Assembly: GCA_903843705.1 (NCBI GenBank)
Contig: CAIMQW010000241.1
Location: 1-42,108, forward strand
Reading direction: 5' to 3'
Origin: an uncultured Holophagaceae bacterium
GTDB taxonomy: Bacteria > Acidobacteriota > Holophagae > Holophagales > Holophagaceae
Length of the DNA stretch: 42,108 nt
The first letter of the stretch is position 1, and each line of letters starts with the position of its first letter. This document shows, piece by piece, positions 8,223-15,630 of this stretch. The notes below the pieces were generated by a model. It did not search any database. It saw nothing but the letters and a program-made list of their open reading frames with translations, and had not been told where the DNA came from. A program made the translations under genes and the position numbers.

Positions 8223-8579
8223 CTAGAGTTCCTTATTGAGGGCCTCGACCGCCTGCTCCATGTAGAAGCGGGCGCGGCCCAGCAGGCCATCCCGATGCAT
8301 CACCATGACCAGGGTGCAGTGTTCCATGGCGCCCATCATGAGGATCCAGTGCTGATCGGTGGCGAAGGCGACCTGCTTCACCTCGCCGAGGTCGAACTCC
8401 GCCACAGCCTCCTGGAGATGACGCTTCACCACGTGCTGGTAGGCGCCCAGGAACTGGAGACCTTCGTTGGAGACCTGGATGGTGCGGGCACACACGGGAT
8501 CGCCGTCCCGGTCGTTGAAGGTCGCGGCCAGAGACTCCGGCACGTTTTCGATGAGCTTGTCCAGAATTTGCTGGAACAT
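8223..8579 (-). CDS. Roadblock/LC7-like small protein
   Basis: This 118-residue protein has the alpha-beta pattern of Roadblock/LC7 domains: FQQILDKLIENVPESL helix, strand with DRDGDPV, helix LQFLGAYQHVVKRHL, strands KQVAFATDQHWILMMG and HCTLVMVMH, and a final helix GRARFYMEQAVEALNKEL. Such proteins regulate small Ras-like GTPases such as MglA in polarity and motility. The start is the ATG at 8579 with GGAG eight bases upstream. The open frame continues 30 codons upstream, but those residues show no domain. No GTPase gene lies in the window. The neighbour nupC begins 9 bp downstream, so the two are probably co-transcribed. Function beyond the fold is unknown. Confidence 0.7.
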   Translation of the reverse strand: MFQQILDKLIENVPESLAATFNDRDGDPVCARTIQVSNEGLQFLGAYQHVVKRHLQEAVAEFDLGEVKQVAFATDQHWILMMGAMEHCTLVMVMHRDGLLGRARFYMEQAVEALNKEL

Positions 8580-8633
8580 GGCGGGACTCCGGTTCTGCGT
8601 GCCCAAAGCATGACCGCGATGGGTGTCTATGGC

Positions 8634-8663
8634 AAAGCCCGCCGAGCCCCCAACCGGCGAGGC
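8634..8663 (-). terminator. Weak hairpin between two minus-strand genes
   Basis: The 86-bp gap after the secreted-protein gene contains a GC-rich hairpin on the minus strand. GCC-T-CGCCG (8663 downward) pairs with CGGCG-GGC with one bulge, leaves a loop of about ten bases, and is followed by only TTT. It may attenuate read-through into the Roadblock gene. The short T-run makes full termination doubtful. Confidence 0.25.
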
Positions 8664-8665
8664 CC

Positions 8666-9346
8666 TCACTTCCGGAGGAATAGTGCCTCGAAGTCGCGGA
8701 GGGCCACCGGGTCCCCGTCCCGCTTGAGGGGGCCATAGAAGTCCTGGGGGCTCAGCTCGGCAAACTCGCCGAAGGTGGCCACATTGCCGTTGATATAGGC
8801 GATGAACTCATCCTGGCGCCCCTTGATGTAGCCCCGGAAGGGGCGGGACACCAGGCCCAGGATGGCCGAATCCAGGGCGGTCCAGGTCTCCAGGTGGGTC
8901 TCGAAGCCGTTCTTGCCCTCCCAGTATTTGTAGGAGGTCAGCATGCGGGCCCCCACCGCAAAGGGGGTCTTGAGGCGACCCCGCTCGGCCCGGCCCACCA
9001 CCAGGTAGACCCGGTGCCCTGGGCGCTGATAGACCAGGCGCAGGCTGCCAGTGAGACCCCGGGTGTCGTTGATGCTCCAGGCGCCGTCCGGGTGGGTGAA
9101 CGCATAGAAGGCCGGCACAAACTGGCAGTGCCGCCACATGGCCGCCCCCAGGCGCGGGTGGTCGAACAGCTTCTCCATGGTCGCCATCCGCACGTGCTTG
9201 GGCTGGGTCTTTGTGTCGAAGACGAAGTCCGCCCGCTGGATGATGTCCCGGGCTTCCTCCCGGGCCGCAGGCTCCAGCTGTTCCAGAAAGGCCGGGGGCT
9301 GGGCCAGCAAGGAGAAGGTCAGGAGGGCGGGGAACAGGGCACGCAT
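8666..9346 (-). CDS. Predicted secreted protein of unknown function
   Basis: I do not recognise this 226-residue protein. Residues 1-16 (MRALFPALLTFSLLAQ) look like a cleavable signal peptide, so it is probably periplasmic or outer-membrane associated. The mature part begins with a helix (PAFLEQLEPAAREEARDIIQRADFVF). A mixed region follows with several alternating hydrophobic strands, such as LRLVYQRPGHRVYLVVGRAERG and FAVGARMLTSYKYWEGKNGFETHLETW. It then ends in FGEFAELSPQDFYGPLKRDG. No cysteines form pairs and no catalytic motif stands out. It is first in a minus-strand run with the Roadblock and nupC genes and is divergent from the HEAT-repeat gene at 9412. Coding is supported by the signal peptide and open frame. 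Confidence 0.7.
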   Translation of the reverse strand: MRALFPALLTFSLLAQPPAFLEQLEPAAREEARDIIQRADFVFDTKTQPKHVRMATMEKLFDHPRLGAAMWRHCQFVPAFYAFTHPDGAWSINDTRGLTGSLRLVYQRPGHRVYLVVGRAERGRLKTPFAVGARMLTSYKYWEGKNGFETHLETWTALDSAILGLVSRPFRGYIKGRQDEFIAYINGNVATFGEFAELSPQDFYGPLKRDGDPVALRDFEALFLRK

Positions 9347-9411
9347 GGGAAAACGCTATCACTTTCATGTTGGATCTTGACCCGGGAGTGCCCCGAACCG
9401 ATGGGAAGGTC

Positions 9412-12081
9412 ATGACTGCCCCGCTCCGCTATGTCCCCGTGACACCCCTGGACGAGTTCCGGGCCTGCCTCGGCAACCACCTAGAAGACGACGGCACCTC
9501 CCAGGTCCGAATCCACCAGCTCATGGGCCAGCTCCGCCAGTTCACGCTGCCCGAGCTCGGGGACCGCCTGACCAGGGCCTCGGCCAGCATCGCCATGAAG
9601 CGGTTCGTCCTGGGACTCACCGCCAAGTTTGATTGGCCGGAGTGGGTGCCCTGGATCTTTCAGGTACTCCAGCAGGAGCCCGACCTTGGCGTCTTTGACG
9701 AAGGCTGTGCCGCCCTGGGCCGTCTGGAGCTCCGCTCGGCCCGGGAGGCCCTGCAGAAGCTCGCGGCTCTGCGCACGGACCCGGACCGGCAGCTCATCCT
9801 CCGCCGGGAGCTGGGCACGGCCGAGAATCAGCCTTTATCGTTTTATCTGGGGCGCTTGCTCGAGGGCGAGGGCAACCCCCGCCTGGCCCACCAGGGCGCC
9901 CGGGGTCTGGCCGCCGTCGCCGAACCGGAGGACTTCCACGCCCTCTGGGGAGCCCTTGTCGGCGCCGATCCCCTGGCCTTCCGTCTGCTGCTGCGAGCAG
10001 TCACGGAGCTGCCGGGAGAGCTCTCCGGCCCGGCCCTGCTCGAGCTGTTCCGGGAGAGCGTCCAGACCCTCCAGGACCTTGAGGCCCTGGAACGCCTGAC
10101 CCATCGGCTGCAGACCGGAGCCCGCACCACCGCCCGGGCGGAACTGGCCAAGGCCCTCACCCTATGCCTGGAGGGTCGGCAGGACGAGGCCCTGCGGGCC
10201 CTCCAGGTCGCCCTTGAAGCCGGCGAAGCCGGGGACCCCCTCCCTTCCCTGGAGCATCTGCGGACCCAGGTGCACGGGCCCTACCAGCAGTTCATCACCG
10301 AGGCCCTGACCATCCTCGTGGAAGGCAAGGTCGCCCGGTTCAGCGCCATGGTGACCGAGGCCCAGGACACGGCCGCCAAGCAGAGCCTCGGCCTGATCAC
10401 CACCCTGGACCTCGCCTGTGAGTGCTTGGTCCGCAAGGTCACCGGGGGCGAGCTGCCCGCAGACCTGGTTGTCCCGGTCCTCCAGGAGGCCTTCGACCAG
10501 GTGCCTGGCTGCGCGGGCCTGGACCTCGCCTTCTGCCGTCTGGTGCCGGCCCAAGACGAGGGGGCGCTGGACCGCATCCTCCAGGTACCGGATTCCAAGC
10601 GCCGCACCGCCTGCCTTGACATCCTCGGCGCCCGGGAGGAAGACGCCCTGGTGCCCTTCTTCCTGCGGGCCATGCAGGACACCATCGTCGAGGTCGGGCA
10701 GCGGGCCATGCACCACTTCGGCAAGCTGCCCTCCAGCTTCCTGACGGTCATGGGCCTCTTCGAGTCCGGCCAGCCCGAGCAGGTCCGGACGGCGCTCCGG
10801 ATCTTCACAGAAAATGGCACCAAGGCCGCGGCAGAGCCGCTGACGGCCTACCTCAAGACCGATGTCCGGGACGACCTCCTGCTGGAGGCCGTGGAGGCCC
10901 TCGGGGCGATCCGGTGCCCCAGCGGGGCCCCGGTCCTCCTGGACCTGCTGCACGACGGCAAGCCCGCCCGCTTGCAGGAGGCCCTCGTGGAGGCCCTGGC
11001 AGCCCTGGCCACTCCCGAGGCCGGCCTGGGCCTGCTGGCGAAATCCGCCCACCTCAAGCTGCCACAGGTCCTCATAGTGGCCACCGAGGGACTGCTGGCA
11101 GCCTTCCCCGGCTTCGAGCGCCCGCTACCCCAGGACGCCCTGCCAGCTCTGGAACAGCTCATCACCCGCTGCTGCGACGAGCGCGAGGGTGAGGGCCAGC
11201 GGCTGCGGGCCATCCTCGCCACCCAGCACCTCTACTGCTTCGACCAGGACCTCTACTCCAGGCTCAAGGACCTGTTCTCAGACTTCCTCTTCGACCTCCG
11301 GACCAAGGGCGGTTGGGACCGGGAGACCAACGACCGGGTCTCGGCAGTGGTCAAGGAACTTGGCCGGCGCAGCGCCAGCCTGGAGCACATTGCCAGCAAG
11401 GAGGAGAAAGTGCGGACCCTGGTCCAGGCGCTGCCTCCCCATGGCCCCCCCCGGGCCGCGGCGCTGCTCACGCTCCGGGAGGCCCTGCAGGATCCGGAGT
11501 TCATCATGCGGACCGAGCTCTCCAGCGAGCTCGCGGCCTTCGTGCTGAACGACCTCCAGCGGAAGGATCTGGACTGGCGGGAGCAGGCGCGCCTCTGTGA
11601 GATCGGCGCCCTCACCCGGCACTTGGAGCTGGCCGAGCCCCTGAAGGAAGTCTTCAAGGGAGCAACCGGCTTGGGCCTGCGCAGCGCGGCCAAGGAATCG
11701 CTCCTGGCCCTAGGCCTCACCGAGGAGGAGATCTCCCGTCGGGCCCCCATCCAAACCATCCTCCTGCTGGAGCCCAGCTCCTTCTTCCGGAAGCGGCTGC
11801 TGGCCGCTCTGGGCCAGACCTGGGATATCCGCGACGCCGGCACCCGCACTGAGGCCGCGTCACTCCTGGCGGAGCGACCGGTGGACCTGCTGATCTCCGA
11901 GCAGATGGACGCCATGGGCGACCTGCGGCCCTGGCTGAAGATGCAGTGTGAGACCCATCGCTGCCGCCAGGTGCTGCTCTCCACGGCGGCCCGGGACGCC
12001 AGCACCACGGAGCCCTGGCTCATGGGCGTGCTCTATAAACCCTACGCACCCGATGCGCTTCTGAAAGCACTCGAGCCCTGA
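9412..12081 (+). CDS. HEAT-repeat protein with C-terminal degenerate receiver domain
   Basis: This is an 889-residue cytoplasmic protein (no signal peptide). Most of it is helical repeats of HEAT/armadillo type, with recurring units such as PFFLRAMQDTIVEVGQRAMHHFGKLP and LLDLLHDGKPARLQEALVEALAALATPEAG. The last ~105 residues (from Gln781) follow the receiver fold: ILLLEPSSFFRKRLLAAL, then VDLLISEQMDAMGDL, LLSTAAR and LYKPY. The conserved Lys876 is kept, but the phospho-acceptor aspartate is Glu830 and the acidic pair is LE, so normal phosphorylation is unlikely. The ATG at 9412 has GGGAAGG upstream and is preferred over the one at 9367. It probably acts as a scaffold whose receiver part is fixed or binds partners. 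Its partners are not known. Confidence 0.8.
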   Translation: MTAPLRYVPVTPLDEFRACLGNHLEDDGTSQVRIHQLMGQLRQFTLPELGDRLTRASASIAMKRFVLGLTAKFDWPEWVPWIFQVLQQEPDLGVFDEGCAALGRLELRSAREALQKLAALRTDPDRQLILRRELGTAENQPLSFYLGRLLEGEGNPRLAHQGARGLAAVAEPEDFHALWGALVGADPLAFRLLLRAVTELPGELSGPALLELFRESVQTLQDLEALERLTHRLQTGARTTARAELAKALTLCLEGRQDEALRALQVALEAGEAGDPLPSLEHLRTQVHGPYQQFITEALTILVEGKVARFSAMVTEAQDTAAKQSLGLITTLDLACECLVRKVTGGELPADLVVPVLQEAFDQVPGCAGLDLAFCRLVPAQDEGALDRILQVPDSKRRTACLDILGAREEDALVPFFLRAMQDTIVEVGQRAMHHFGKLPSSFLTVMGLFESGQPEQVRTALRIFTENGTKAAAEPLTAYLKTDVRDDLLLEAVEALGAIRCPSGAPVLLDLLHDGKPARLQEALVEALAALATPEAGLGLLAKSAHLKLPQVLIVATEGLLAAFPGFERPLPQDALPALEQLITRCCDEREGEGQRLRAILATQHLYCFDQDLYSRLKDLFSDFLFDLRTKGGWDRETNDRVSAVVKELGRRSASLEHIASKEEKVRTLVQALPPHGPPRAAALLTLREALQDPEFIMRTELSSELAAFVLNDLQRKDLDWREQARLCEIGALTRHLELAEPLKEVFKGATGLGLRSAAKESLLALGLTEEEISRRAPIQTILLLEPSSFFRKRLLAALGQTWDIRDAGTRTEAASLLAERPVDLLISEQMDAMGDLRPWLKMQCETHRCRQVLLSTAARDASTTEPWLMGVLYKPYAPDALLKALEP

Positions 12082-12125
12082 TCAGAGTCCGGGCGGCTAT
12101 GCTTTTTTTTAGACCCGAGGCCCCC

Positions 12126-13601
12126 ATGCCCGCCCTCTCCCCATGGCTCCGACTCCCGGCCGCGCTGCTCTGCGTCATGCCGGTCCTGGCCCAGACTCCC
12201 GCCCAGGATGCGGGGCTGGCCGAGCGCCTCTACCGTAGCGGGGACCGGGCCTATTCAGACAAGGGCTACAAAGAGGCCCTGGAGACCTGGGCCCAGTTGC
12301 TCCAGGCTGCTCCCAGAAGCGTCTTCGCACCCCAGGTGCTGCTGCGGCTCGCCCGCCATCAGGTGGAGATCGAGCAGAAGCCCGAGGCGGCCATGCCTTA
12401 CCTGGACCGCCTGCGGAGCGAGTTCATCAAGGCCCCCGAAGCCGCCGAGGGACTGCTGCTTCGCGGCGTCCTGCTGGCCCGGCAGGCCCGACGGCCCGCG
12501 GACCTCAAGGACGCCATGGCCGAGTTCAACCGGGTGCTGGATCTCTTCCCCGACGCTCCGGCCTGTGCCGAGGCGCGCCTCCAACTGGGGCGCGCCTGGC
12601 GCGACCAGGGCCAGGCGGGCCGGGCCCTCCTGTTCTTCATCGACGCCTTTCGCCTCCGCGAAGAGGGCCCGACGGCAGCCCCGGCGATGCTGGAGGCCGC
12701 CAAGGCCCTGGACACCCTGGGCGATCTGCCAGGCTGCCTGCGCCTGCTCCAGCGGCTGCGGGCCAAAGCGCCCCAGAGCCCCGAGGCCCGGGAAGCCGAG
12801 TGGCGCACCGCCGTACTCGTGAAGCAGCGCCTGCAGAAGCCCCCTCTCAAGAACGATGGCCCCTGGCCCGCCGGCCGGACCAAGTGGCTCAAGACGCCCA
12901 TCCTCCTGGCCATGGCCCCGGATGGAGACCTGCTCCTGTTCCAGAACGACCTCGACCACGCCTTTCGCCTCCACGGGAGTGAGCTGACCCCCCAGGGTCC
13001 CGCCGCGCCCGGCACCCGGGCGATGGTTGTGGCCCCCTCTGGCCCCCTCTGGCTGCTGACCAAGGCGGGCCTCCTGAGGGAAGACTCGTCCACAGCCCTC
13101 CCCCTGGGCCAACTCGGAGCCATCTCCGGTGCCGCCCTGGACCGCTGGGGCACGCTCTGGGTGGCTGATGCCAAGACTCCGGCCCTGACCCTCTTTCCGC
13201 TGGAGGGGGCCTCGCGGACCATCGCCTGTCCCACGGCCTCCGCCCTGGCCTCCCTCCCCACCGGCGGGGTCATCATTGCTGCGGATGCAGACCGCAAGCT
13301 GCTGTTCCTGGATCCCGACGGCCAGCCCCGCACCATCGTTCCCTATGGTAAGGATCTGCCAGCGGCATTCCGGACCGTGACCGCCCTCGCCGCCGATGGG
13401 GCGGGGCAGGTGGCTGCCCTGGTGGACGGCGGCGAGTTCGGCGAAGGGGTCGTGATCTACGGCCCGGACGGCGCCGTGCTCCGGCAGGCGACCTTCAAGG
13501 CTCTCGGCATCACCGGCCGCATCACCTCCCTGGCCCTGGACCGCTCCGGTGGCCTGATCCTCTGCGACCGCCGCAACGACCTGCTGATCCGGTTGAACTG
13601 A
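12126..13601 (+). CDS. Secreted TPR plus beta-propeller protein
   Basis: This 491-residue exported protein starts with a signal peptide (PAALLCVMPVLAQ, cleavage after about residue 23). Residues ~25-240 are TPR-like helical pairs, including AERLYRSGDRAYSDKGYKEALETWAQLLQ, similar to the YbgF/BamD style of envelope TPR. Residues ~255-491 are repeated strands of NHL/SMP-30 type (ILLAMAPDGDLLLF, GAALDRWGTLWVADA, TSLALDRSGGLILCD), suggesting a propeller. The start at 12126 follows GAGG; an in-frame ATG at 12099 would place extra residues before the signal peptide. A TATGCT box at 12098 may be its -10. The stop is one base from the next ATG, so translation is coupled to the PEGA gene. Probably an envelope scaffold; function not known. 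Confidence 0.75.
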   Translation: MPALSPWLRLPAALLCVMPVLAQTPAQDAGLAERLYRSGDRAYSDKGYKEALETWAQLLQAAPRSVFAPQVLLRLARHQVEIEQKPEAAMPYLDRLRSEFIKAPEAAEGLLLRGVLLARQARRPADLKDAMAEFNRVLDLFPDAPACAEARLQLGRAWRDQGQAGRALLFFIDAFRLREEGPTAAPAMLEAAKALDTLGDLPGCLRLLQRLRAKAPQSPEAREAEWRTAVLVKQRLQKPPLKNDGPWPAGRTKWLKTPILLAMAPDGDLLLFQNDLDHAFRLHGSELTPQGPAAPGTRAMVVAPSGPLWLLTKAGLLREDSSTALPLGQLGAISGAALDRWGTLWVADAKTPALTLFPLEGASRTIACPTASALASLPTGGVIIAADADRKLLFLDPDGQPRTIVPYGKDLPAAFRTVTALAADGAGQVAALVDGGEFGEGVVIYGPDGAVLRQATFKALGITGRITSLALDRSGGLILCDRRNDLLIRLN

Positions 13602-13602
13602 C

Positions 13603-15630
13603 ATGCGCCTCCACCACTTCCTCCTCCTGCCCCTGCTCTGCGGCCTCCTCCTTGGGCAGGAGGCCGCCGTGAAGGACGCCTTCCTCCAGGCCAAGTCCCT
13701 GTGGGCCACCCAGGGCGACCGGGAAGGCGCCACGCAGCGCTTCGACAGCGTAGTGGCGGCCCTCGCGCCCAGGGGCATCGCGCTGGAGCCCGAGGGCGTC
13801 CAGATGCTCTGCGAGACATACAACTGGCTCGCGGTCCTGGATGACCGCAGCCCCCAGCACAAGCCTCGCGCCCAGGTACGCCTCCAGGCCCTCATCGACC
13901 TCAACCCCGACTTCGACGTGGATCGCGCCCTCACCTCTCAGCGCCTCGCCACCCAGTTCGACCGCATGAAGGGCGAGAAGCATGCGCTGGTCAAGCTCAG
14001 CCTCGCCCCCGAGGGCGGCCGCCTGTTCGTGGACGGCAAGACGGTGCCCGCCCTGCCCCGGAAGTACCTGCCCTTCGGCGTCCACAAGCTGGCCTATGCG
14101 CGGCCGGGGCACACCTCCGTCGAGCTCACCGTCGAACTCGGCCCCAAGGACGTGAAGACCGCGGAGTTCAAGCTCGAGCGCACCGCGTCGACCCTCACGC
14201 TCTACGTCCAACCCAGCGACATCGAAGTCCTGCTGGACGGCAAGAGCCTCGGGCATACCACCGGAAAGGCCGGGCCCGAAGCCGCGGCGCTGGCGACCCC
14301 CCTGGGCCTGCGCCCCGAGGACCTCTCTGCCGCCTTCGTCATCCCCGAGCTCCCTGCCGGCAAGCACCGCCTGGAGCTGCGCGCCCCATGTTTCCGGACC
14401 CGGGTCCTGGCACTGGGCGAAGACCTGGCGACACCCCCGGCCGATCACACCCTCGAGCCCATTCGCATGGAAGCCTCCAAAGGCTCGCTGTCCGTGGCCT
14501 CCGCCTGGCCGGGGGGCGAGCTCTTCCTCTCCGGTCAGAGCCTCGGGCCCCTGCCGGTGGTGAAGGCTCTGGTCTGCTCGGGGCCTTACGATCTGCTGGT
14601 GCGTTTCCCGGGAGGCGGCTTCTCCCAGCGCGTCACCCTGGAGGATAGCAAGGCTCTGGACCTCGAAGCCCGCCCGAAGCCCCGCCTGGCCTTTGCGGGA
14701 CTCGAAGCCGGAGACTTCACCGGCCGCGCCCGGTTCCAGGCCCTGCTGGAGGCCCTGGGGGACCGTCTGCAGCAGCTCGCCTTCCTGCCCGCACGCACGG
14801 GTGAGGCCCCCCGGGATGCCCTCGCCCGCCTGAAGGCCTCCCGCGAGGCGGAGCTGGTCCTGCTCGCCTCCCCGGTCCAGGATCCGATCATCCACCGCGT
14901 GGAGCTGGTCCTCACCACCCTCGATGGCGAGGAGGAACGCCTGCTGGTGAAGCCCCTGGAACAGGATCCCCTCGGCACCCTCGCGACCCGCCTCAACACG
15001 CTGCCGCGCCTCATGGAGCCCAGCCTCGGCCTCACGCTGCTCGACGTGCCCGGAGAAGCCGGGCCCTGGGTGCTCGCGGCCTCGGAGGCGGCGCTCAAGG
15101 CCGGGATCCAGACCGGCCAGCCCCTGCTGCAGATCGAGGGCAAGCCCCTGCCTTCCGCCGAGGCCCTCCGGCAGCAACTGGGCTCCACAAAGGCGCCCCT
15201 CTCTCTCAGCCAGGGGGGAGCCGCCCTGACACTGCCCGTGCTCCAGGAAGCCCTCGAGCTGCCCCTGGGCTCGCCCGACCTGAGCTATCCCGCCGTCCTC
15301 AGCCACCTGCGACTGCAATACGCCGGGGCCAAGGGGGACGACGCCAACCTGGTCAAGCTCAACATGGCCCTGGCCCTGATGCAGTTCCGCCGCTACGACA
15401 AGGCCATCGAGCTGCTCCGTGACGCGCGGGTCACCACTGTGCGCGGCGTCAGCCAGGGTACCATTGACTATCATACGGGGGTCTGTTTTATCCACCTGGG
15501 TGCGACCTACCAGTCAGAAGCTGCACAGGCTTTCCGTCAGGCACTGAAGTATCCTCAGGCAACCCTCCTCGGTCCCGAGGGCCCCCTGGTCGCACCCCTC
15601 GCCCGGCAGGCCCTTGAAGATCTGAGGTAA
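13603..15630 (+). CDS. Secreted PEGA/PDZ/TPR protein
   Basis: This is a 675-residue exported protein. A signal peptide (HHFLLLPLLCGLLLGQ) is followed by a helical region. PEGA-like surface repeats come next, in which a short 'dGk' turn is followed by a GxHxL/V strand (RLFVDGKTVPALPRKYLPFG, then IEVLLDGKSLG and ELFLSGQSLG). Around residue 470-550 there is a PDZ-like segment (ASEAALKAGIQTGQPLLQIEG, KPLPSAEALRQQL). The C-terminus has TPR-type helices (NMALALMQFRRYDKAIELLRD, ATYQSEAAQAFRQALKY). PEGA domains usually bind cell-surface polymers. It overlaps almost exactly with the previous gene (one-base gap) and is followed by a small membrane protein, so the three probably form one envelope complex. 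The PDZ call is moderate. Confidence 0.75.
   Translation: MRLHHFLLLPLLCGLLLGQEAAVKDAFLQAKSLWATQGDREGATQRFDSVVAALAPRGIALEPEGVQMLCETYNWLAVLDDRSPQHKPRAQVRLQALIDLNPDFDVDRALTSQRLATQFDRMKGEKHALVKLSLAPEGGRLFVDGKTVPALPRKYLPFGVHKLAYARPGHTSVELTVELGPKDVKTAEFKLERTASTLTLYVQPSDIEVLLDGKSLGHTTGKAGPEAAALATPLGLRPEDLSAAFVIPELPAGKHRLELRAPCFRTRVLALGEDLATPPADHTLEPIRMEASKGSLSVASAWPGGELFLSGQSLGPLPVVKALVCSGPYDLLVRFPGGGFSQRVTLEDSKALDLEARPKPRLAFAGLEAGDFTGRARFQALLEALGDRLQQLAFLPARTGEAPRDALARLKASREAELVLLASPVQDPIIHRVELVLTTLDGEEERLLVKPLEQDPLGTLATRLNTLPRLMEPSLGLTLLDVPGEAGPWVLAASEAALKAGIQTGQPLLQIEGKPLPSAEALRQQLGSTKAPLSLSQGGAALTLPVLQEALELPLGSPDLSYPAVLSHLRLQYAGAKGDDANLVKLNMALALMQFRRYDKAIELLRDARVTTVRGVSQGTIDYHTGVCFIHLGATYQSEAAQAFRQALKYPQATLLGPEGPLVAPLARQALEDLR

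Follow-up and report, generated by a model that had tools for sequence, protein, structure and literature searches.

A HEAT-repeat protein of Holophagaceae with a predicted C-terminal pseudo-receiver, lost together with the flagellum

What can a receiver domain be for when it sits at the end of a long helical-repeat protein and carries glutamate where the phosphorylated aspartate should be? The question is raised by a gene in a 42,108-nucleotide stretch of DNA (hereafter the window) from an uncultured Holophagaceae bacterium, contig CAIMQW010000241.1 of assembly GCA_903843705.1, forward strand. An initial annotation of the bare sequence had read its product as a HEAT-repeat scaffold fused to a receiver fixed in the active state. 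We call the gene HEATREC and followed it through a sample of 77 Holophagaceae genomes. With rather more confidence than doubt, we propose that its product is a cytosolic flagellar or flagellar-chemotaxis scaffold of this family, in which the altered receiver would serve as a constitutive docking module. The gene and its two parts are as follows:

9412 to 12081, + strand: HEAT / pseudo-receiver fusion gene (HEATREC), 889 aa, from the open reading frame and its translation; orthologue in 55 of 77 family genomes
9445 to 11709, + strand: HEAT-type alpha-solenoid, residues 12-766, predicted from the HEAT_2 match, the full-length AlphaFold2 (AF2) model and solenoid structural matches
11752 to 12078, + strand: C-terminal pseudo-receiver, residues 781-889, predicted from AF2 on 54 homologues and the structural match to 6m8o

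The reading frame runs from ATG 9412 to the stop that ends at 12081, translating to 889 residues, with GGAAGG at 9404-9409 just 5' of the start; an alternative in-frame ATG lies at 9367, yet homologue alignments begin at residue 1 of the 9412 start. Pfam assigns HEAT_2 to the protein at 4e-12 (46.7 bits against a cut-off of 27.7, best stretch residues 452-530), and the full-length AF2 model (predicted local distance difference test score, pLDDT, 89.8; predicted template-modelling score, pTM, 0.70) is a nearly all-helical solenoid to about residue 775, followed by a receiver. Searched with VIA-align, this model ranks receivers at the top and then SF3b, beta-catenin and karyopherin solenoids; the matches to solenoids of the importin-beta, SF3b and beta-catenin types have large root-mean-square deviations (rmsd), as expected for flexible superhelices. 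The Pfam match above its cut-off and the model together place the predicted protein among the HEAT-repeat alpha-solenoids. No NCBIfam model matches the 889-residue protein, and no flagellar family model names it.

Residue counts throughout refer to 54 full-length copies from 53 genomes, G071 contributing two; a copy split over two contigs (G015) and a partial one (G062) stand outside the alignment. Modelled by AF2 from the C-terminal 125 residues and the alignment of these 54 homologues, the domain reaches pLDDT 90.7 and pTM 0.84, with its elements in the order beta1-alpha1-beta2-alpha2-beta3-alpha3-beta4-beta5-alpha5. The top solved structure in VIA-align is 6m8o, a LytR receiver (Z 16.8, rmsd 1.7 A over 109 aligned residues); each of the best 50 matches has Z >15, and the best 50 of 265 Foldseek matches in the PDB at E<=0.001 are mostly receivers or response regulators. 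At the sequence level the window protein matches no Pfam receiver family even at E<=1 (the PF00072 gathering score is 30.2 bits), PF00072 is reported at E<=1 for 32 of the 54 homologous domains (best 6e-4), and a PDB sequence search with the domain alone gives a response regulator as its sole match (12.6 bits, E 1.5). A profile of the domain matches seven other places in its own genome, all overlapping PF00072 receivers. When it was aligned with 40 of the 118 receivers listed for that genome, all six key positions shared the canonical columns, Glu830 falling in that of the acceptor Asp and Lys876 in that of the Lys.

Chance resemblance to a receiver was considered and ruled out by the fold, the profile matches to own-genome receivers and the column agreement, and also because Glu830 does not vary even among homologues as little as 30% identical. 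The C-terminal domain thus has, in prediction, a receiver fold that is invisible to Pfam. On both halves the initial annotation had seen correctly: the receiver pattern that it traced over some 105 C-terminal residues is the one recovered here at high model confidence, no other fold being predicted, and the HEAT_2 match together with this predicted fold upholds its fusion of scaffold and receiver.

The acceptor in the 40 own-genome receivers is Asp in 38, Cys in one and Ala in one; the two exceptions are L147 (C55:4417-4752) and L160 (C1:211-540). Another, L143 (C154:1615-1953), is among the nearest own-genome receivers by profile and has Asp-Pro for the acidic pair and Cys for the Thr with the acceptor Asp kept, possibly a halfway form.

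Five features of the domain bear on what has become of its active site:

11770 to 11775, + strand: Glu787-Pro788, replacing the Asp-Asp pair; first position (DD1) acidic in 54/54 homologues, second (DD2) Pro in 54/54
11779 to 11811, + strand: helix alpha1, residues 790-800, with the motif F791-F792-R793-K794-R795, three of these invariant and two kept in 53/54
11899 to 11901, + strand: Glu830, phospho-acceptor position, Glu in 54/54 homologues
11986 to 12018, + strand: beta4-beta5 loop, residues 859-869, shortened, with helix alpha4 absent, ending in invariant Trp869; from DSSP of the model and the Thr-Lys spacing
12037 to 12039, + strand: Lys876, the conserved active-site Lys, in 54/54 homologues

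Every aligned copy has Glu at the acceptor position and none has a phosphorylatable Asp there, so the homologues bear out the Glu that the initial annotation had noticed, as well as the retained Lys876. Its acidic pair 'LE' has to be corrected: the pair columns are Glu787 (Glu in 45, Asp in 9) and Pro788, which means that only the first of the two acidic metal ligands is present. Position 858 is Thr in 51 copies and Ser, Cys and Ala in one each, so that the Thr/Ser and the Lys of a receiver are both conserved. Taken with the models, these residues identify the domain as a phospho-dead pseudo-receiver, a predicted receiver fold lacking the residues for phosphotransfer.

The constancy of Glu830 is greater than that of acidic positions in general. 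On a tree built from the HEAT part alone, 41 of the 55 columns that are Asp or Glu in at least 50 of the 54 sequences exchange the two, with 1 to 11 changes each: DD1 does so four times, position 881 six times, position 805 nine times and Glu830 never. Only E89, E592, E830, D423 and D825 are fixed in all 54, Glu830 being one of three fixed Glu. What is kept at 830 is Glu itself, beyond mere acidity.

Does this Glu hold the domain in a permanently active, effector-binding state by mimicking phospho-Asp? Its invariance, alongside Lys876 in all copies and Thr858 in 51, would suit such a reading, structural matches include the D-to-E receivers 2jb9 and 7e90, and excerpts of one survey describe constitutive Asp-to-Glu mutants (PMC4395418). 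To that extent the mimicry supposed by the initial annotation has precedent; the same excerpts add that the substitution is often insufficient by itself, and since they give Glu as the commonest substitute in Asp-less receivers (26%), the exchange as such is not rare (PMC4395418). The remainder of the switch speaks against a fixed-on receiver. DSSP finds no helix alpha4, which normally belongs to the output face of a receiver, between beta4 and beta5 in the AF2 model, and the Thr-to-Lys distance is 18 in 30 sequences and 20 in 24, against 22 in 36 of the 40 own-genome receivers and at least 21 in all 40. Three residues before the Lys (K-3, position 873) stand Val in 23 copies, Ile in 12, Ala in 11 and Thr in 8, never an aromatic, and hence the Y-T coupling pair is not retained; among pseudo-receivers as excerpted from a 2025 review, 47% keep both coupling residues and about 80% have a non-acidic DD2 (PMC12632262). 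The metal-binding DD2 is here Pro, and two residues after the Lys (K+2, position 878) there is Tyr in 44 copies or Phe in 10, Phe at this place being reported to bias CheY toward inactive conformations (PMC12632262, excerpts).

With these features the 'fixed-on' claim is not supported in the form given; we consider a permanently active domain unlikely and read it as a pseudo-receiver that is locked, not as a response regulator that is always active. Without alpha4, 'on' as the word is normally used has no defined meaning for the domain, and since the alpha4/beta5 switch is lost with it, the pseudo-receiver would act as a constitutive docking module.

Two further fates of such a domain are judged by what has stayed conserved. 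The pocket residues E787, P788, S789, E830, T858 and K876 are all invariant or nearly so, as they might be if the altered pocket bound a small molecule or ion instead of phosphate and so regulated the scaffold, and ligand-binding pseudo-receivers often use the alpha2, beta3-alpha3 and alpha3 regions (PMC12632262, excerpts). With a metal ligand lost and a Glu placed near the Lys, the pocket may simply be filled, and we give ligand gating a very small probability. The domain might alternatively be vestigial, a leftover that caps the C-terminal end of the solenoid and has no partner: it no longer has the phosphotransfer residues, a capping domain on a solenoid is plausible, and a HEAT paralogue of about 650 residues manages without a receiver altogether. 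Against this, the receiver outconserves the HEAT part, with a mean identity of 44.8% versus 36.3% over 338 distant pairs and the higher value in 313 of them, and the aligned C-terminal stretch has 15 invariant columns that include charged residues of alpha1. Apart from the old active site, conservation is densest in the F791-R795 motif of this helix. A vestigial cap seems to us decidedly unlikely. A constitutive docking module is the most economical mechanism, because the Asp and one metal ligand are gone, yet the fold, the pocket (E787, E830, T858, K876) and alpha1 remain strongly constrained.

Which process the scaffold would serve is suggested by the distribution of the gene. Matches occur in 58 of the 77 genomes; in three of these (G010, G022, G060) they are to the receiver-less paralogue alone, which leaves the gene in 55. 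A search for CheW gave few matches, or none, in most of the genomes that lack the gene. Counting genomes as flagellate by their genes (FliG or rod matches) and not by observed swimming, FliG is found in 56 of 77, namely in 52 of the 55 with the gene and 4 of the 22 without it. The three gene-bearing genomes with no FliG match (G020, G027 and G028, which are 88, 58 and 77% complete) have 6, 3 and 5 flagellar rod matches, so that all 55 are flagellate; 18 of the 22 genomes without the gene have neither FliG nor any rod match, in a rod search over 28 genomes. Here the genes around HEATREC become informative:

12099 to 13601, + strand: TPR protein, 500 aa, syntenic neighbour, from Pfam and context; kept in 14 genomes that have neither flagellar genes nor HEATREC
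13603 to 15630, + strand: PEGA/TPR protein, 675 aa, syntenic neighbour, from Pfam and context
8223 to 8669, - strand: Roadblock/LC7-like protein, divergent neighbour, a weak assignment from context and a match of 15.6 bits, below the cut-off of 23

In the four genomes that have FliG and not the gene (G010, G022, G025, G060), none of the TPR, PEGA and Roadblock-like neighbours was found either; aroA, next in the locus, was not found in three of them, and in G060 its match starts 517 bases from a contig start. The simplest reading is that the locus is absent from these assemblies, although G022, being 95% complete, may have truly lost all of it. The informative genomes agree fully, 55 having the gene and flagellar genes and 18 neither. 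Fisher's test on the raw 77-genome table gives 5e-11, a value that ignores relatedness. We therefore placed gene presence on a tree of the PEGA neighbour protein for 63 of the 77 genomes, leaving out 14 that had no usable PEGA sequence. Gene presence changes at least four times on it, and branches with good support require all four changes; the lineages concerned are G047, G054, genus g6 (represented by four genomes) and an eight-genome clade of Geothrix. FliG is concordant with the gene in 4 of 4 independent pairs and discordant in none. The gene was thus lost at least four times on lineages that also lost the flagellum, while its neighbours stayed.

General chemotaxis was rejected as the correlate: the aflagellate Geothrix relatives G004, G007, G008, G013 and G049 keep four CheW matches each and have no HEATREC. 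The chemotaxis cluster with a CheZ-like gene on contig C305 of the window's own genome co-occurs almost as well as flagella do, its triple-CheW protein being present in 53 of 77 genomes; that protein was not found in five gene-bearing genomes, all of them 58 to 87% complete.

Could the gene instead share an envelope or other function with its TPR and PEGA neighbours, flagella being a mere correlate? Gene order is conserved through most of the family, and in the window a gap of 17 bp separates HEATREC from the TPR gene. Presence is uncoupled in both directions, however. The TPR neighbour is retained in 14 of the 18 flagella-less genomes, where HEATREC is missing, and six flagella-less loci (L121-L126) have the flanking genes adjacent with no room for 2.7 kb; conversely, genus g11 (four genomes, G073-G076) has HEATREC, and TPR and PEGA were not found there. 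A joint function with the TPR, PEGA and Roadblock-like neighbours was accordingly rejected, and we regard an envelope or neighbour function as improbable. On the other side of the locus, the Roadblock-like gene (8223-8669, -) directly overlaps a gene for a 226-aa protein (8666-9346, -) in the window; relatives such as L035 and L121 have two membrane-protein genes between these, a pair that is missing in the window.

The link of HEATREC to flagella is a correlation over gene content, from which we infer a functional one, and several observations weigh against a flagellar scaffold. The gene lies in no flagellar or chemotaxis cluster: its neighbours are TPR, PEGA, aroA and a nucleoside transporter, and the flagellar loci of its own genome are on contigs C57 and C53. 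None of the flagellar promoter motifs sought in 51 upstream regions is convincing: sigma54-like ones occur in 12, against 8.8 in shuffles, and sigma28-like ones in 7, against 1.75 but at differing positions. Among 297 genomes drawn evenly from the phylum no full-length relative was found outside the family, the other matches being HEAT or receiver stretches alone, so that HEATREC is no general part of flagella. The sign test over the four pairs gives p 0.125, and fewer than six pairs cannot reach 0.05. Roles in the motor, in assembly and in chemotaxis are not separable, because flagellar chemotaxis genes go with the flagellum.

Nor did a scan of genome contigs show a full-length relative beyond the family: its 43 loci are all from records titled Holophagaceae, Holophagales, Geothrix or Acidobacteria except one, L109 (JAJTBC010000045.1), which is titled Bacillota bacterium; its locus follows the Holophagaceae order, and the record is probably a metagenome assembly under a wrong label. 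The records of G. limicola Red804 and G. rubra Red803 are among those that carry the gene. G071 (L057) and G072 (L058) have a second full-length form, a divergent one of about 30% identity that likewise has Glu as acceptor, G071 having both forms.

Returning to a flagellar scaffold with a docking domain, its parts might work together as follows. HEAT solenoids that lack a catalytic site usually serve to bring partners together, and the HEATREC solenoid would be the platform of a cytosolic scaffold that serves the flagellum in its construction, placement or chemotactic control. The receiver would have become a pseudo-receiver in three respects, with no Asp phosphorylation at Glu830, a metal ligand lost at Pro788 and the alpha4/beta5 switch lost, and Glu830, Lys876 and Thr858 most likely keep what was the active site in place as a fixed cluster of polar residues. 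Docking would probably use the conserved patch F791-R795 on alpha1. The functional tie to the flagellum, the docking of a partner by this domain and the face used for it are what we infer here. If true, the proposal would bring to light a flagellar factor specific to one lineage, and it would provide a clean example of a receiver that has been converted into a docking part. The 2025 review calls it a mystery how pseudo-receivers of bacteria are turned on and off (PMC12632262, excerpts). The one described here is not seen by Pfam and has a strictly kept Glu and no switch helix, and the joint loss of its gene and flagella, at least four times over, is a natural experiment from which a testable process can be read.

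The receiver-less paralogue occurs in 30 of the 77 genomes, all 30 flagellated by FliG or rod genes, at loci L061 (L061:4510-6438), L062, L065 and others; it was not found in the window's own genome, which is 86% complete. In seven loci examined there is no flagellar cluster around it. A weakly M29 peptidase-like gene is present in 5 of the 7, and single neighbours by Pfam are a transglycosylase, a Reg_prop-GGDEF sensor, a Cache kinase and a PilZ protein. Elsewhere in the window's own genome, contig C305 (L171:4002-9582) carries a chemosensory cluster of CheY, a CheZ-like protein, a 510-aa triple-CheW protein, CheA and CheW. Gene calls in this analysis, among them those behind the TPR and paralogue counts, the paralogue loci and this cluster, come in part from a crude base-composition heuristic. 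The CheZ-like protein begins MDQSEIDTLLAGG, which we take to resemble the CheY-binding N-terminus of FliM.

How does HEATREC compare with known systems? The architecture is unusual, as the initial annotation had said. In the open-licence literature, searched with a limited set of terms, neither a HEAT / pseudo-receiver fusion nor this particular protein has turned up. ChxR and HP1043 have DNA-binding OmpR-type outputs. As excerpted in PMC4395418, they resemble HEATREC as Asp-less receivers missing part of the secondary structure of the pocket region, with Glu as acceptor in ChxR; they differ in having no scaffold. HP1043 (2pln) is also among the structural matches of our model, at Z 13.3. Asp-less and pseudo-receivers at large share with the HEATREC domain a receiver fold without the phospho-Asp, Glu as commonest substitute, a first acid and Lys that are usually kept and a second acid that is usually lost (PMC12632262, PMC4395418, both in excerpt). 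The HEATREC domain differs in its C-terminal place on a HEAT solenoid and in lacking alpha4, and lying below the reach of PF00072 it is probably absent from surveys built on that model. Rim15p of Ascomycota likewise has a C-terminal pseudo-receiver with Glu as acceptor on a large protein, which is however a fungal protein kinase (PMC12632262, excerpts).

The HEATREC layout, with a receiver that is C-terminal after a solenoid and no coiled-coil tail, is not that of FrzS of Myxococcus xanthus, which to our knowledge has no HEAT repeats. FrzS is alike in being a pseudo-receiver on a non-catalytic protein that docks within a motility apparatus, and differs in the coiled coil that follows its domain and in serving type IV pili instead of flagella (PMC12632262, excerpts); its acceptor is replaced by Ala (PMC4395418, excerpts). 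On the scaffold side, the HEAT_PBS protein OE2401F of Halobacterium salinarum interacts with CheD and OE2402F (DUF439/CheF) and is needed for switching flagellar rotation (PMC2666748, excerpts), and hence a HEAT scaffold can serve motility. The likeness to HEATREC drawn here is one of description, that of a HEAT-type protein tied to motility. OE2401F is archaeal, lies in a che gene region and has HEAT-like repeats as its sole domain (PMC2666748, excerpts), whereas the neighbours of HEATREC are not che genes. Tentatively, and with doubt outweighing belief, one may go further and picture HEATREC as an unrecognised part of the flagellar switch or of the chemotaxis relay, specific to Holophagaceae: a CheY-type domain, frozen by its Glu acceptor, the Pro in the metal site and the deletion of alpha4, would be mounted on the HEAT platform for good as a CheY-like subunit. 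HEATREC would thereby be a convergent bacterial counterpart to the haloarchaeal HEAT_PBS protein, which links chemotaxis with the archaellum.

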